Positions 7,732 to 59,820 of a stretch of 64,000 bases of DNA are shown in pieces (position 1 is the first letter of the stretch; each line of letters opens with the position of its first letter). The DNA is taken from assembly GCA_028285105.1 (NCBI GenBank), contig JANQQE010000021.1, positions 434,001-498,000 of the forward strand. The letters are read 5' to 3'. Origin of the DNA: Alphaproteobacteria bacterium. GTDB lineage: Bacteria > Planctomycetota > Phycisphaerae > UBA1845. Both the position numbers and the translations under genes were made by a program. A model generated the notes under the pieces. It was not told where the DNA came from. It saw only the letters and a list, made by a program, of their open reading frames with translations, and ran no database searches.

Positions 7732-8919
7732 CTAGTCCAACCAAGACTTGCGTTGTTTCAAGCGTTGCGGCGTGTACTCGTCGGTGACGAAGGTCAGGTT
7801 TTTGCTGCAAAGCGCTTCGACTTCCATTTTGAAACCGTTCTTGATCATCTGCTTGATTTCTTTTTCCCAGGCTTTTTTTCCGGCGAACCAAGGGTAGTTG
7901 AGGATTTGCTTGGCGCGTTTGACGTCGTTGCCATCGAGTTCGATTTTGACGTCGTCGGTCAAGTCGAAGCGTTTGTAGTCGAAGCTGGAAACGCCGATGA
8001 ATTGGGCGTTGGGGACGGCCATCCTTGACGACTCGAACGCGAGGTTGATCGAACCCTGCTTGATGACTGAATAGATGTAGTAACCCCACGGGTCATTGTC
8101 GAGCAGGCAGACGATGGGTAGTTTGAGTTCGTCGTGCATTCGGTAAAGCATCCGCCGTACACCGCGAGACGGCTGACCTCCACCGTGGGTGAGGATGCAG
8201 CGGTGTTTTTCCCAAAAACGGTCTTCCACAAAGCGTCGCCATACAGTGTCTTTTTCGACATGAAGTACGTACTTGGCTTTGCACTTTTTGAATTGAATCA
8301 CGTTCGGTTCGACGATGCTGGGGATGGCGTAGCCCCCACTGCCGAGTTTGGTGGCGTCGATGGTGTCGCCGCTGTCGACAAACGTCAACTCGCCGATGAG
8401 CGCCCCCTTGCTGCCGGCGAATACGTGCAACTCTTCGCGCAGGGCTTCGAGGGCAACTTCCAAATCTTCGATGACGGGATCTGATTCGTCCTGACTGTCG
8501 AAGGTTTTTTCTTTGGTGCCTTTGATGGTGTGTTTCGCTAGATAGTAGATTTGTCGAATGCTGGCCGTCTTGTCGGCATCGACGAGTTCCTTGCATTTAC
8601 TAGCCACCAATAGCGTCTGCATGAAGCGTTTGGCTTGTCCGTAATTAAACAGGCTGCGTTGTTGGCAACGGTCGCCCATTTCGATGTAGCGCGTCTTGGG
8701 GTTGAAGCTGACGTTGCTCAGTGCGCGAATGGGAATATCGATCGCCGGTTCGCGCTTGCCGAATGCATTCTCCACCACCGACTCAGCCAACCCCTCCAGT
8801 TTGTTTGTGGTCTTAACGCCATTCTTCCCGCGCTTCGATCGTTTTTTGATTACGGTCTTGGGCGCTTTTTTGGATGCGGACTTTTTGGATTTCTTCGTGC
8901 TGGTTTTCTTTTTGGCCAT
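7732..8919 (-). CDS. top6A: DNA topoisomerase VI subunit A
   Basis: The Spo11-like catalytic subunit of a type IIB topoisomerase, which cuts both DNA strands through a phosphotyrosyl bond. It is 395 residues, close to archaeal homologues plus a tail. The CAP/winged-helix domain contains the active-site signature SIRQIYYLAKH (catalytic tyrosine 125 or 126). The Toprim domain supplies E222 (LHVEKD) and the DNDPWGYY motif with D274 and D276, the Mg2+ ligands. The first 35 residues are a lysine/serine-rich extension (MAKKKTSTKKSKKSASKKAP...), not typical of archaeal subunits and probably disordered and DNA-binding. It lies 43 bases downstream of top6B and abuts the GNAT gene, forming an operon. 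Most bacteria lack this enzyme. All visible catalytic residues are intact, so it is probably active. Confidence 0.96.
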   Translation of the reverse strand: MAKKKTSTKKSKKSASKKAPKTVIKKRSKRGKNGVKTTNKLEGLAESVVENAFGKREPAIDIPIRALSNVSFNPKTRYIEMGDRCQQRSLFNYGQAKRFMQTLLVASKCKELVDADKTASIRQIYYLAKHTIKGTKEKTFDSQDESDPVIEDLEVALEALREELHVFAGSKGALIGELTFVDSGDTIDATKLGSGGYAIPSIVEPNVIQFKKCKAKYVLHVEKDTVWRRFVEDRFWEKHRCILTHGGGQPSRGVRRMLYRMHDELKLPIVCLLDNDPWGYYIYSVIKQGSINLAFESSRMAVPNAQFIGVSSFDYKRFDLTDDVKIELDGNDVKRAKQILNYPWFAGKKAWEKEIKQMIKNGFKMEVEALCSKNLTFVTDEYTPQRLKQRKSWLD

Positions 8920-8962
8920 TTTCTGTATTCGACTGGGTTAGCCGGATCGGGTCCGGATGGTT

Positions 8963-10930
8963 TTATCTGCGTTTCTTCGTTTTACTGGATGACTTCTTCT
9001 TGGATTTTTTGCTTGATTTCCTGGTCTTTTTGGCGCGGGTGGTGCGTTTTGGCGTGGTTGGGGCGCCGTTGGAAAACAACTCCAGTTGACCGGCTGGCGC
9101 TTGCTGCGATTCGTCCAGTACGATCGTGTTGTCCATCTCTGAATCGCCGTTCTTGCGCTTCGCGATAATCTTACCGTGATCGTCGAATTCCATGTCTGCT
9201 GCTTCGGTAGCGCGGGCGGCCAAATCGCTTAGTGCATTGCGCAAATCATCCTTGTTGCAGACCGTCATGGCTCGGCAAGACTCGACGATCTCGTGGATGT
9301 ATCGATGGAACACATCGCGACGCTGGGCGAAGTGCGAGCGTTTTTTCTTTCGGCGGATGTATGTGCCAAGGCGCCGGCCGCACTCGGATAAGCCGAGTTT
9401 GATTTCTTTGCGAATTTCGTCGTAGTCGGCGATGGCTTCTTTCGATTCCGACGTGAACGGAACCCAGACGCTGGCCATGTGGATGAGAACGACGAAGGGT
9501 GCTTGCGGAAGCGTCGAGCGCGATTGCGACAAGCCGTAATTGTTCCACTTGGTATCGACGACGCTCTTGAACGTGCAGCAAGCGCCTTGTTGATAGAGCA
9601 GGGGGACACGATTTGCAAAACGGATGACGCGTGCCGATTGTGGCTGCTTGGATTTGTCGTCGCCTTTGCTGTTCGCATCGAGCGAACCAAGTTGTCCGCC
9701 GAATGCCATCCCGACTTCGATTTGAAACGGGTTGCCGCGATAGACTGCGGGTGGCCTGGTGGATGCGGTGTAGAACTCGGCTTTGATGCCCTTGAGTAAA
9801 CCGTTGAGGATCGCTTCCGCACCGATCGGGGCAAGGCAGTTCGTGCTTGGGGCGCGTAGTTTGGTTTCTTGCAAGACATTGTAGATCTTTTGGATGTCGC
9901 TCGGGCCGACGCTTTGGAGCCAGGTGCGTTGGGTCAGGCCGGCTTTGCTGCATACTTCTTTGGAGATCTTTGGGCTGACGCGCGAGAATTCACCGCTTAA
10001 AAATGCGCCCAACTGTTTTGCGCTGGTTTCCTTGACCATCTTCATCAGAACACCGAGTTCGACACCGTGTGGGTGCGGTTTGATTTCTTCGGTTTGTTCA
10101 GGCAGTTCGTCGACATTCCGCAGGTATTCGAGGACTTTCTTGTCTGGCCCCTTGAAGACGATGGTGGTGTGCGGGTTGGCGATCGCGGTCAGTTCGATGT
10201 ATTCCGCGACGCTTTGGCGGCCTTTGTTGTAGCTGGCCACCATTTCGATTTCGATTTCCGTTCCGCGTTCCCACGGAACTTCGACGGTTTTTTCGGCAAT
10301 GATGTCGGGCTTGTTTTTTTTGGTGTCGATCGCGAGTTTGTAATGGTGGGCGGGCTTGCCTTTGCCGGTGCGGCTGATAATGCTGACGGGCTTACCGGTG
10401 GTAATCAATCCGTACATGCCGGCTGCACTGATACCGATGCCCTGTTGACCGCGCGACATTTTAAGGCGATGAAATTTCGAACCGTACAGCAGCTTTCCGA
10501 AGATATTTGGGATTTGCGCTTTGACAATGCCCGGCCCGTTGTCGCGACAGATCATGCGAAAACGGTCTTCTGAAAGCTGTTTGATTTCCAGATAGATCTC
10601 CGGAAACACACCGCCTTCTTCGCACGCATCGAGGGCATTGTCGACGGCTTCCTTGACGCTGGTCAACAGTGCTTTTCTCTTGTTATCGAAACCGAGCAGA
10701 TGGCGGTTGCGTGCGAAGAATTCGGAAATAGAAATCTCGCGTTGCTGTTTTGCCATCGTTTCCGCGGATGCGCGGGATGTGCGACTTTTTTTCTTGCTCA
10801 CCTTGCCTGCCTTGATACGGGTTAACTTTCCGACGGTGTCGGAGATTGAACATTGCGGGCTAAGTTTGACGTTCGTCTGGCCTGTGATATCTGACGGGAT
10901 ACCAACGGCATTCGCCCGCTGATCTTCCAT
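8963..10930 (-). CDS. top6B: DNA topoisomerase VI subunit B
   Basis: The ATPase subunit that clamps DNA and drives strand passage by subunit A. It is 655 residues. The GHKL ATP-binding fold shows KEAVDNALDACEE (N98 as Mg2+ ligand), DNGPGI (130-135) and GQQGIGIS (161-168). A helix-two-turn-helix and transducer region follows, containing KAGLTQRTWL and a QLGAFLSGEFSRV segment. There is an N-terminal extension of about 58 residues (KAGKVSKKKSR) and a strongly basic C-terminal tail (KKTRKSSKKSKKKSSSKTKKRR-like, last 30 residues), both unusual compared with archaea. It is the first gene of the operon top6B-top6A-GNAT. Its promoter lies in the 387-base region shared with divergent dnaA, so topology genes and the initiator may be co-regulated. 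Confidence 0.96.
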   Translation of the reverse strand: MEDQRANAVGIPSDITGQTNVKLSPQCSISDTVGKLTRIKAGKVSKKKSRTSRASAETMAKQQREISISEFFARNRHLLGFDNKRKALLTSVKEAVDNALDACEEGGVFPEIYLEIKQLSEDRFRMICRDNGPGIVKAQIPNIFGKLLYGSKFHRLKMSRGQQGIGISAAGMYGLITTGKPVSIISRTGKGKPAHHYKLAIDTKKNKPDIIAEKTVEVPWERGTEIEIEMVASYNKGRQSVAEYIELTAIANPHTTIVFKGPDKKVLEYLRNVDELPEQTEEIKPHPHGVELGVLMKMVKETSAKQLGAFLSGEFSRVSPKISKEVCSKAGLTQRTWLQSVGPSDIQKIYNVLQETKLRAPSTNCLAPIGAEAILNGLLKGIKAEFYTASTRPPAVYRGNPFQIEVGMAFGGQLGSLDANSKGDDKSKQPQSARVIRFANRVPLLYQQGACCTFKSVVDTKWNNYGLSQSRSTLPQAPFVVLIHMASVWVPFTSESKEAIADYDEIRKEIKLGLSECGRRLGTYIRRKKKRSHFAQRRDVFHRYIHEIVESCRAMTVCNKDDLRNALSDLAARATEAADMEFDDHGKIIAKRKNGDSEMDNTIVLDESQQAPAGQLELFSNGAPTTPKRTTRAKKTRKSSKKSKKKSSSKTKKRR

Positions 10931-56984: not shown

Positions 56985-57232
56985 GACTCATATGGCTCCG
57001 ATTCGGTATTAAACGCATTGGCTGACAAGCACCCGGTTACCTCGAGGGGGGTTTTCTGGGCCAGCCCCTGCGCTCCTAAATATTTTAGTTGATGGGTGGA
57101 TCGGATGCACGGGCTGAGTCGTTGGAGGGACTGCGATTTTCTTGAATTTGCCAATCAGAGGGCGCGTTGTAGGTGTGCGGTATGGGTGAGTGTTTGCGGG
57201 GCTTGAATGTACTTTGCGGGGGCGATAGGGAC

Positions 57233-57712
57233 ATGAGAAGGCGAAATATATTGACGGTTGGTGGCGTGCTTTTATGCCAGTTGATGGTGGTTGGCTGCGT
57301 GTTGGATGCGCGGGTGGATCTGGCGGCTGCTGGGGCGATGGATCGATTGGCGGGATCGATGGAAGGTGTGGTCAATGAATACCACGCCGAGATCGATCGA
57401 GCCGACAACGCGATGGAAGTTGCGGTTGTCGATGCGTTTGTCGAACGGATTCGACGCGACGTTTCCGATGAAGCGGCAGTAACGTCGCACAATGAGAAGT
57501 TTCGGTTGGCGATGAAGCGGGTGCGAGACGATCGCGCAGTCGAATTCGACCGATATCGTGCTGCGCTCGACAATGTCGATCTGGTGCGCGAGGTGGCTCG
57601 TGGGTTGCGGCGCCTGGCCACCGAAAGCATGTCGTTTGAAGATGATGCCCGTAGATATCTTTTTTCACTTCTTGAAAACGCTCAGGTTTCGAGCGCATCG
57701 CCGGCATCTTAA
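57233..57712 (+). CDS. Small lipoprotein of the Mu-like cassette
   Basis: A 159-residue protein with a signal peptide ending in lipobox MVVGC (C about 21), then a charged helical domain (YHAEIDRADNAMEVAVVDAFVERIRRD; ATSHNEKFRLAMKRVRDDRAVEFDRYRAALDN) likely to form coiled coil. No known family. It is the first of five short same-strand genes (57233-59378) that resemble the minor genes in front of the terminase of Mu-like phages. A lipoprotein in front could be an Rz1-like spanin component, but it is much longer than typical. ATG 57233 is the start; the frame is open upstream. Phage origin is inference. Confidence 0.62.
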   Translation: MRRRNILTVGGVLLCQLMVVGCVLDARVDLAAAGAMDRLAGSMEGVVNEYHAEIDRADNAMEVAVVDAFVERIRRDVSDEAAVTSHNEKFRLAMKRVRDDRAVEFDRYRAALDNVDLVREVARGLRRLATESMSFEDDARRYLFSLLENAQVSSASPAS

Positions 57713-57810
57713 ACGGCTTCTCACTCTGTAAGGTTTGATTTGGCACCGGGTAGCCGGCGCGCAGTCGAGGATTGCGCTATAGGTGTGTTCGTCTTTCGGA
57801 AGGGTTTGAT

Positions 57811-58089
57811 ATGGGTGCAGTTGAAGCGTTGGATGAGTTGATTGAACAGTTGGATGGTACGGAAATTTCAGCCGCTGAAGGTGAAGAATCGAAAACGTCG
57901 CCTGACGCAATAGATCGGGTGTTGGGATCGCAGCCGCGTTCGACGAACGTTCGCAGTTTGAAGGATGACGAAACGATTGAAGCGTTTCGCCGTGAGCTCG
58001 TGGACGGTTTGATTCGCGTGGATACGGCGGGACGGGCGCTGCGTCTTTTGTCGCAGGTTGTTGGGGCTGTGCTTGCGGGTAGGGCGTGA
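57811..58089 (+). CDS. Small acidic helical protein of the Mu-like cassette
   Basis: A 92-residue protein: VEALDELIEQLDGTEIS is acidic, then RSLKDDETIEAFRRELVDGLIRVDTAGRALRLLSQVV, a helical segment with a possible HTH-like feel, ending VGAVLAGRA. No family recognised. It lies 98 bases after the lipoprotein gene, and its TGA stands four bases before the next start, so it is in the same transcript. ATG 57811 is used because the upstream 13 codons are in frame but without a ribosome site. The function may be a phage structural or regulatory minor protein; low certainty. Confidence 0.6.
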   Translation: MGAVEALDELIEQLDGTEISAAEGEESKTSPDAIDRVLGSQPRSTNVRSLKDDETIEAFRRELVDGLIRVDTAGRALRLLSQVVGAVLAGRA

Positions 58090-58093
58090 TCCG

Positions 58094-58519
58094 TTGTCGG
58101 CTGGCGTTTGGGAGATGGTGGGGGCAGGCCTGGCGGTCGTTGCGCCGCTGGTCGGTGTGCCGCTGACGGTGATGACGTTTTATCTGAAGAGTCTGCGCGA
58201 ACAGCAGGCGGGCCGGTTTTCGGATTTGACTGAACGGGTGAGTACGACCGGGAAGGAGTTGCGCCGCGTTGTGGAAGATGTCGGGCAGATTCGGCGTAAC
58301 TTTGCGACGAAAGAGGAATGGCTTCGGGAAACGATGTGGGCGCGGCAGAGAATAGAGGCGCTCAGTGCGGCATCGATGCGCGCGGAGACGGAGTTGGAAT
58401 CGCAGGGCGGGTTGGTGGCGACATCGGAGCGGACGCATCGGCTGGTGGCTGAGATGGCGAAGAAGGTTGGGGTCGGCGAAGCGCGCCCGAAGGTTCAGGA
58501 TGATGGGGAGTCGCGTTGA
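58094..58519 (+). CDS. Membrane-anchored coiled-coil protein, Mu gp25/DUF2730-like
   Basis: A 141-residue protein with an N-terminal transmembrane helix (GAGLAVVAPLVGVPLTVMTFYL, about 9-32) and a long coiled coil (LREQQAGRFSDLTERVSTTGKELRRVVEDVGQI...). The layout (short helix, then heptads with E/R-L periodicity) is that of the DUF2730 family, known from Mu-like phages as gp25, lying ahead of gp26 and gp27. The start is TTG 58094, with AGGG nine bases upstream; ATG 58115 is possible. The TGA of this gene overlaps the ATG of the next by one base. DUF2730 identity is inferred from layout and order, not from a matching motif. Confidence 0.6.
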   Translation: MSAGVWEMVGAGLAVVAPLVGVPLTVMTFYLKSLREQQAGRFSDLTERVSTTGKELRRVVEDVGQIRRNFATKEEWLRETMWARQRIEALSAASMRAETELESQGGLVATSERTHRLVAEMAKKVGVGEARPKVQDDGESR

Positions 58520-58836
58520 TGGCAAATGGACGTACGGCTCGCCAGATTAAAATGGTGCGCAATGAAGTGCTGGTTGCGTTGAACATGCTCTACCCAGCCG
58601 CCCTGCAAGCCGAGCAGTTGATGCGCAGTTTGCTGAGCGTGTTTCCGGAGATGGAGTGGGATCCGTTTCGACGCGACCTCGCGTACCTTTGCGAAAAGGG
58701 ATATGTGCAGCGGGTGGTTTCGGACAGCGAATCCGACTCGAGGTTCACGCCATGGCGACAGCGGTGGTTTCGTTTGACGAGCGCGGGAATGGAAGTAGCC
58801 GACCGCGTCATCGGCGACCCGGCACTGGATGATTGA
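58519..58836 (+). CDS. Winged-helix protein, Mu gp26/ArsR-like
   Basis: A 105-residue protein. RNEVLVALNMLYPAALQAEQLMRSLLSVFP, then WDPFRRDLAYLCEKGYVQRV and WFRLTSAGMEVADRVIGDPALDD, is a short winged helix of the type found in Mu-like phages ('-R-DL-WL-E-GLV--', then 'LT--G--VA-G' at the end), where it follows DUF2730 and precedes DUF3486. ATG overlaps the preceding stop (TGATG), so it is translationally coupled. It may bind DNA or act as a small virion-assembly factor; the real role of gp26-type proteins is not established. Confidence 0.65.
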   Translation: MANGRTARQIKMVRNEVLVALNMLYPAALQAEQLMRSLLSVFPEMEWDPFRRDLAYLCEKGYVQRVVSDSESDSRFTPWRQRWFRLTSAGMEVADRVIGDPALDD

Positions 58837-58838
58837 CC

Positions 58839-59378
58839 GTGGGCGCGACGAAGAAAACGGCAGCGAAGAAAGTGGTCAAGTGCAAGAAAACAGCGAGCAA
58901 GAAATCCACCACCAAGAAATCAGTCGCCAAGGAACCCGCGCCCAAGGGCTCGCAGCCGGCGGCTGACGAAGCCGAAACCCCCTTGGAAATAGACGAATAT
59001 CGCCAACGCCTCGGTGCCGTAGGGCGACTGATGCGGGCAGCGTTAGCCGATCTTGAGGGGGTGGAGGAGGTCAGCGACCGCATCGGTCAGGGGGCGTATC
59101 TGCAAGTCATGGGTCGAGCGTTTGAGGTACTCGACGGTTTGTCGCAGACGATTGAAGTCGACGATCTGGTAAAGATTTCCAAAGTAGTCGCCGAACAACG
59201 CCGCGCCGAATTGAATCATCGCAAGTTGCAGATGGTTGGCGAGGCGGCAGACGGGCAGGCGAATTCAAACGGAGACATTGAGTCGCGCGACCTTGAGTTG
59301 CCAGAGTCGTTTGGAGAGATCGTTCGGCAGATTTATGGCACGACGTTGGCTGCGGATTTGAATGGAGGGGGTGAATAG
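58839..59378 (+). CDS. Lysine-rich-tailed protein, possible Mu gp27/DUF3486 analogue
   Basis: A 179-residue protein from GTG 58839 (TTG 58833 is possible and overlaps the preceding stop). The N-terminal 45 residues are K/A/T/S-rich (TKKTAAKKVVKCKKTASKK). The rest is helical: YRQRLGAVGRLMRAALADLEG; AYLQVMGRAFEVLDGLSQTIEVDDLVKISKVVAEQRRAELNHRKLQ; ending DLELPESFGEIVRQIYGTTLA. In Mu-like phages the equivalent place has DUF3486 (gp27), a small-terminase-like protein with a comparable central helix set. Identity is only positional. It is the last of the five genes; the next object is RNase P RNA on the other strand, and no terminase, portal or capsid gene follows. Confidence 0.6.
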   Translation: MGATKKTAAKKVVKCKKTASKKSTTKKSVAKEPAPKGSQPAADEAETPLEIDEYRQRLGAVGRLMRAALADLEGVEEVSDRIGQGAYLQVMGRAFEVLDGLSQTIEVDDLVKISKVVAEQRRAELNHRKLQMVGEAADGQANSNGDIESRDLELPESFGEIVRQIYGTTLAADLNGGGE

Positions 59379-59432: not shown

Positions 59433-59454
59433 GGATTCTTTGATTAGCGGCGAC

Positions 59455-59820
59455 GAGGCGGGCTTGTAAGCCGAATTTTGTTCGCGATTGCTCGCGGGCG
59501 GTCATTCATCTGGGCCGACAGTTGCCTATCGGCTCGAGCACCCTACCCGCGACATTTACAGACGGGCCGCCTGGTTGCCGCTGCTTGGGTTTGCTGGCGG
59601 TGGGGTTTACCCTGCCACGGTTGTCGCCAACCGTGCGGTGCGCTCTTACCGCACCATTTCAACCTTACCGGCCACCACTGATGTGATGACTTAGGCGGTG
59701 TATTTTCTGTGGCACTTTCCCTCGACTTGCGTCGGGTTGGCGTTACCAACCACCGTGCCCTGCCCAGTTCGGACTTTCCTCCGACGATTGAAATCGCCGG
59801 CGACTGCCACCGCCCGCCTC
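59455..59820 (-). ncRNA. rnpB: RNase P RNA (class A)
   Basis: The catalytic RNA that trims 5' ends of pre-tRNA, about 366 nt on the minus strand. The 5' end GAGGCGGGCGGTGGCAG pairs with 3' GCCCGCCTC to form P1. It contains the universal core GGAGGAAAGTCCGAACT (CR-I region), GGGAAAGTGCCACAGAAA, and near the 3' end GATGAATGACCGCC plus AAAATTCGGCTTACAAG, which match bacterial class A P RNA (ACAGAA...TTCGGCTTA). The conserved AGGGTGCTCGAGC and AGACGGGCCGC also fit. There is no open protein frame here despite ORF-like gaps. Convergent with the Mu-like cassette. Confidence 0.96.

Follow-up and report, generated by a model that had tools for sequence, protein, structure and literature searches.

A candidate gene transfer agent-like system of Mu-like phage ancestry, dispersed over planctomycete chromosomes

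Introduction

Gene transfer agents (GTAs) have been recognised in a small number of lineages, and how widespread they really are is hard to judge, since sequence separates them poorly from prophages. Loss of the DNA-binding domain from the small terminase (TerS) is a stated hallmark of GTAs (PMC6854486, PMC11841831). In phage Mu, TerS is encoded within a run of late genes that reads o-spanin (a lipoprotein), gp24, gp25 (releasin), gp26 (a winged HTH protein), gp27 (TerS) and gp28 (the large terminase, TerL). Capsid-forming PICIs, phage satellites that borrow the tails of their helpers, carry head and terminase genes and no full tail. In the literature searched, subscription papers and most preprints lying outside its scope, no planctomycete GTA is described.

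The stretch of DNA analysed here (the window, 64,000 nucleotides) carries a five-gene cassette beside rnpB. We consider it likely that the cassette is the packaging and lysis module of a multi-locus, domesticated GTA-like system descended from a Mu-like phage whose head was of the B3/B23 type. In what follows, G000 is the window's own genome, C10 is the contig that holds the window, and f1, f2 and so on are arbitrary codes for families of relatives.

The cassette and its relation to Mu gp25-gp26-gp27

The first-pass annotation had described five tightly packed or overlapping genes followed by RNase P RNA. All five open reading frames (g1 to g5) are present on one strand, and the Rfam match places rnpB on the other (Table 1). 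The intervals between g1 and g2 and between g2 and g3 are 98 and 25 nucleotides, the g3 stop and g4 start overlap by 1 nucleotide, and 2 nucleotides separate g4 from g5. The block 5' of g1 is the same in most species of the window's genus, as judged from the g1 upstream sequences of five species.

Table 1. Positions of the cassette and of the associated features (window coordinates unless C10 is given)
Feature	Position	Strand	Description
Conserved block 5' of g1	57151-57181	+	CCAATCA..GGGC.CGTTGT.GGTGTGCGG; putative promoter or regulator site
g1	57233-57712	+	Lipoprotein, lipobox ...MVVGC, with Cys22 as the lipobox end
g2	57811-58089	+	Small acidic protein
g3	58115-58519	+	N-terminal hydrophobic/transmembrane segment and coiled coil; gp25 homologue by profile comparison
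g4	58519-58836	+	Winged-helix protein; Mu gp26 homologue by profile comparison
g5	58839-59378	+	GTG start; small-terminase-like (gp27), Lys/Ala/Thr-rich tail, no helix-turn-helix
rnpB (RNase P RNA)	59451-59820	-	Rfam RF00010, E 2.4e-95; neighbour of the cassette, not part of the system
Topoisomerase VI	7732-10930	-	Archaeal type; subunit A PF21180/PF04406, subunit B PF09239; each lysine-tailed
Cassette on its contig	C10 491.2-493.4 kb		g1 to g5
Head operon	C10 ~126-139.5 kb		TerL, portal, protease, decoration protein, gpT capsid, gp36 adaptor, terminator/distal-tail fusion, hub, small appendage proteins
TerL and portal	C10 137.0-139.5 kb		Part of the head operon
TerL of G000	C10 138.3-139.6 kb (L060:18344-19600)		128-nt deletion and frameshift after Walker A
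Third locus	C10 22.9-25.6 kb (L223:8869-11550)		Three consecutive genes, for a 71-aa holin-like protein, an ABC-type ATPase and a CI/LexA-like S24 repressor

The same annotation had likened the cassette to the Mu gp25-gp26-gp27 module. The likeness stands for g3, g4 and g5, only at the level of profile-profile comparison and through planctomycete prophages, and was not demonstrated for g1 and g2. Profiles of the cassette proteins were compared by hhalign with Phycisphaerae prophage and Mu/B3/B23-type profiles. g3 reached 96.9% (E 2e-10) against the planctomycete prophage gp25 set and 10% against the Mu-type gp25 set. g4 reached 99.8% against the prophage gp26 set and 76.5% against the Mu-type set, matched phrog_436 among the PHROGs (E 1.7e-5), and approached NCBIfam VpaChn25_0724 at an E-value of 0.15, below the cut-off. 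Orthologues of g5 that bear an HTH gave 96.5% (E 8e-10) against all phage gp27 sets and 86.5% against the Mu-type gp27 set alone; reversed controls for g5 stayed below 0.4%, and off-diagonal comparisons of cassette with phage profiles were clean. Because the full g5 set, many members of which have no HTH, scored only 9%, the case for g5 as TerS rests on the HTH-bearing orthologues and on position. By these comparisons, made through the prophages, g3, g4 and g5 appear to be distant homologues of Mu gp25, gp26 and gp27.

Single-protein scans of Pfam, NCBIfam and PHROGs returned almost nothing for g1 to g3 and g5. The two Pfam families named in the annotation were not found by hmmscan: g3 had no Pfam match, DUF2730 included, and neither had g5, DUF3486 included, the window protein representing the C-terminal part only. 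Matches of g5 to Rv3852 and to H1-like families were discarded as due to the lysine tail. Neither g1 nor g2 matched any of the phage gp25-27 profile sets by hhalign, and g2 matched no family in Pfam, PHROGs or NCBIfam; no phage homologue was demonstrated for either gene, though both are conserved with the cassette, and g1 sits in the slot of phage lipoprotein/spanin genes.

True Mu-like prophages occur in five of the relatives. Here a g4 relative, at 31-46% identity, lies between a transmembrane coil gene and the small terminase, and TerL, portal, protease and capsid then come 3' of the latter. The cassette shares with Mu the order transmembrane coil, winged helix, TerS. Unlike Mu, it lies far from TerL and the head genes, its g5 has no HTH, and no transposase, sheath or gpF was seen.

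Domain loss and a lysine-rich tail in g5

Alignment of g5 orthologues revealed that the HTH domain is missing from the window genus, where a Lys/Ala/Thr-rich start stands in its place; the lysine-rich part is the N-terminus, about residues 1-35. Many relatives have the HTH, and in one of them it is predicted with a pLDDT of 93-96 as a homeodomain-like fold. Foldseek, run with the HTH form of g5, returned homeodomain-like HTH matches only and no terminase among solved structures, so the fold search alone does not prove that g5 is TerS. The g5 of the window genus, having no N-terminal DNA-binding domain, fits the GTA small-terminase hallmark and adds a basic tail to it. The HTH persists in many relatives, so that DNA specificity has not been lost throughout.

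Similar lysine-rich tails occur in the same window on topoisomerase I and on both subunits of topoisomerase VI, which would fit a DNA-binding role for the g5 tail. The topoisomerase VI subunits lie near dnaA, dnaN and gyrB, in a planctomycete.

Conservation, position and selection of the cassette

Among 120 relatives, g4 was found in 61, mostly in single copy and at 31-93% identity. The cassette itself, prophage copies aside, occurs in about 59 related Phycisphaerae genomes, mostly once per genome, and the order g1-g2-g3-g4-g5 is repeated across many genera. Those relatives that bear a name are Phycisphaerae MAGs, Phycisphaerales bacterium UBA1845, of the window's genus, being one of them. At 48 named loci, g4 was recognisable in all 48, g3 in 47, g5 in 37, and g1 and g2 in 31-32, figures to be read with the simple in-house script that called genes in relatives, by which small genes may be missed, and with the draft state of most of these genomes, which makes absences weak. 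Across the class, close orthologues of g4 are confined to families f1, f2, f3 and f5, plus f6, other matches being of prophage type. All g4 relatives on viral contigs are at most 38% identical, with no close copy in a free phage.

Antiparallel rnpB lies 3' of the cassette in at least 17 of the 48 loci (12 confirmed by Rfam), and since this adjacency is common to many genera, the position of the cassette is old. Within the genus, dN/dS is 0.17 for g1, 0.16 for g2, 0.15 for g3, 0.07 for g4 and 0.16 for g5; with the genes of the other loci the range is 0.07 to 0.19, TerL standing at 0.09, and a value of 2.7 for the protease, produced by a query in the wrong frame, is left out of account. The cassette is under purifying selection.

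The head operon and its reduced tail

Terminase, portal and capsid had been reported missing, which is correct beside the cassette and incorrect for the genome: a separate locus was sought and found on this contig, at a distance of about 350 kb. Like Mu gp28-gp37, this head operon has a portal, a protease (PF10123, 2e-57), a gpT capsid (PF10124, 7e-59) and a gp36 head-tail adaptor (PF07030, 1e-21), together with a decoration protein (phrog_1731, 5e-21), the E-values being those of the window's own genome. In the congener or sister species G002, TerL matches PF03237/PF17289 and the portal PF06074. Of 120 relatives searched with profiles, 77 have TerL (by a profile built from prophages), 96 a portal and 97 a capsid. 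TerL and portal are usually adjacent and in single copy, and TerL is present in 53 of the 59 genomes with a non-prophage cassette. In several genomes of different families the TerL-portal operon is close to gyrB, at distances between a few and some tens of kb (G071, C1:2414739-2421952; G034; G013; G028).

TerL is intact in G001, G002 and G004. The copy in the window's own genome carries a deletion and a frameshift (Table 1) and is dead or misassembled, leaving G000 with no intact packaging motor. Because of this lesion we call the system GTA-like and not a GTA.

Comparison with prophage late genes identified the tail hub at 100% over 675 columns. A fusion protein was also recognised, the second half of which is the distal tail protein (95%), while the first shares phrog_490 with the tail terminator, a weak match. 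The small appendage proteins matched their prophage counterparts at 95%, 99% and 49%. A Neck1-type protein, tail tube and tape measure had no counterpart in the head operon in this comparison; of these names, PHROGs supplied Neck1-type alone, and hub, distal tail, tube and tape measure were assigned by prophage order and size. Searches of 110 relatives found the tube in 6 and the tape measure in 12, with the strong matches in prophage-bearing genomes and none in the window genus, G000 included. A contractile tail was rejected, a sheath occurring in only 4 of 120 relatives. AlphaFold gave no usable model of the 737-aa hub (pLDDT 32).

A third locus and links between the loci

The holin-like protein of the third locus recurs in 59 of the 110 genomes searched, as a rule in single copy. 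Its gene lies directly 5' of g1 in f2 and f5, near the capsid gene in f4, at C10:22.9 kb in G000, and 5' of the coil gene in prophage L047. The third-locus ATPase likewise lies directly 5' of the cassette in f5, and in G082 and G067 it precedes g1 together with the holin-like gene; both genes adjoin the cassette in a sister family. Only comparative synteny would tie this locus to the system. A palindrome, TATTGCTATATAGCAATA, is found at the start of the S24 repressor in sister species. A motif search found no operator common to the three loci, and the flanks read around the cassette, head operon and third locus contain no replication or integration genes.

The dispersal seen as three loci on C10 has parallels elsewhere. 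In G011 the cassette (3.40 Mb), TerL-portal(-protease) (2.44 Mb) and capsid (0.42 Mb) are separated on one chromosome. In G073, from another family, the cassette is about 12 kb from a protease-decoration-capsid-gp36-hub group, and TerL-portal is on a separate contig.

Ancestry and differences between lineages

The TerL tree places 47 chromosomal copies in a single clade (100/98), whose sister group is the TerLs of planctomycete prophages. Within the clade the copies are ordered by host family, with f8, f5 and f1 (with f2) branching off in turn. For g3, g4, g5, TerL, portal and capsid, distances track those of gyrB (Mantel r 0.71-0.87, p 5e-4), also without sister species (r 0.56-0.78, p 5e-4), and the matrices of these six genes correlate with one another. 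Phage structural genes are thus fixed in the chromosome, mostly as one copy, and follow vertical inheritance, as the TerL clade and the gyrB-like distances attest. Read from these comparisons, the pattern is that of a phage domesticated once, near the base of the order, whose genes later dispersed; the tail genes went missing, and some lineages lost other parts as well.

Family f4 has head genes (portal, protease, capsid, gp36) and no detectable Mu-type TerL or g4 (L072 in G078, L076 in G069), and f8 has TerL and the head operon with no recognisable cassette. In G051 (L043), g1 to g5 and the holin-like gene are present, and no TerL, portal or capsid match was found at 93% completeness. A second orphan pair, gp26-like and small-terminase-like with no TerL, from another Mu-like lineage, occurs at L046:2334-3344 (G033:C531).

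Five Phycisphaerae prophages (L044, L045, L047, L050 and L051) are Mu-like, of siphovirus type and have little similarity to isolated phages, the closest isolated-phage TerL being that of Alteromonadaceae phage B23 (38.7%). L044, L045 and L047, with B23, provide the nearest homologues of TerL, gp25/gp26, hub, distal tail and appendages. The prophages are contiguous and have tube and tape measure; the domesticated genes lie apart, are conserved and are present mostly once.

Alternative explanations

An active Mu-like prophage was rejected: no contiguous set of transposase, head and tail genes was found, the sheath is absent, and neither tube nor tape measure was detected in G000. That a complete Mu-like prophage was merely split by an assembly error, as the first-pass annotation had allowed, is rejected as exceedingly improbable. 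The genome is in 36 contigs, but the cassette borders rnpB in the interior of a contig of 666 kb and does so in at least 17 independent assemblies, and the single-contig genomes G011 and G082 display the same separation. The annotation had also offered a degraded prophage. Genes of one phage are indeed scattered, the genome's own TerL is broken and parts are missing in some lineages, as decay of an old Mu-like prophage would leave them. Conservation over several families of one order, in the same gene order and beside rnpB, the low dN/dS of all five genes (0.07-0.17) and the single TerL clade with host-like branching speak against such decay, which we reject as very improbable. The annotation's other option, a domesticated cassette or one piece of a GTA-like system distributed among several loci, is the one that the data favour.

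Domestication could have served other ends. The head may be used for storage or export of protein or nucleic acid, for lysis or kin competition, or as a weapon, with the cassette supplying lysis and assembly functions. With no tail tube or tape measure found, it is doubtful that DNA is injected in the manner of known GTAs; f4 keeps its head genes with neither TerL nor g4, and purifying selection proves only that there is some function. Yet a protein shell needs no DNA motor, and TerL is conserved, selected and intact in most lineages; TerS is conserved with its terminal motif, and hub and appendage proteins are retained. We judge a non-transfer role unlikely, though it is the strongest competitor. 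A satellite-like or anti-phage role, in which orphan TerS, gp26 and gp25 block or redirect packaging by Mu-like phages as PICI small terminases do, is more doubtful still. Related Mu-like prophages do occur in several relatives (G015, G029, G045), and a head with no tail tube recalls the capsid-forming PICIs, which likewise combine head and terminase genes with an incomplete tail. Unlike those satellites, the present system has no mobility genes in view, no integrase in its flanks, a fixed position beside rnpB over genera, vertical inheritance across families, and head genes, hub and fibre (adsorption) genes kept at separate loci.

A model and comparison with known systems

As a domesticated GTA-like phage, the system would probably make virus-like particles carrying the cell's own DNA. 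The S24 repressor would be relieved by DNA damage or another cue and procapsids would assemble. Irrespective of sequence, g5 with its lysine tail would load TerL onto the chromosome, and heads would be filled headful-wise with host DNA. g1, the gp25-like g3 and the holin-like protein would probably help in cell opening and lysis. The particle would end in a stub tail, with the terminator-distal tail fusion, the hub and small fibres as its components; the fusion points to a hub that docks with no tube, and particles would attach to other cells and deliver their DNA.

A bolder claim, to which we give equal weight for and against, is that this is the first GTA in Planctomycetota. Domestication of a Mu-like phage would then have taken place close to the root of the order to which UBA1845 belongs within the Phycisphaerae, and the phage would have been split among no fewer than three dispersed loci. 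Its particles would be stub-tailed, with neither tube nor tape measure, and in one genus TerS would have given up the domain that reads sequence and gained a histone-H1-like lysine tail, leading to non-specific packaging. An entire bacterial order carries a candidate GTA-like system, which offers independent natural experiments: TerS with or without its DNA-reading domain, varied operon splits, and one lineage with heads and no detectable motor. The route from phage to GTA, through loss of TerS specificity, of linkage and of the tail, becomes testable by comparison. If particles form, GTA gene exchange would extend to a phylum for which the literature searched describes none.

Set beside RcGTA of Rhodobacter capsulatus, BaGTA, Dd1 and VTA, the system differs in its Mu-like ancestor, its planctomycete host and the lack of a detectable tail tube or tape measure, and it is known here from genes alone. 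Like them, it occupies several loci, is inherited vertically and is under purifying selection, and, like RcGTA and other GTAs, it has in the window genus a small terminase without a DNA-binding domain (PMC6854486, PMC11841831).
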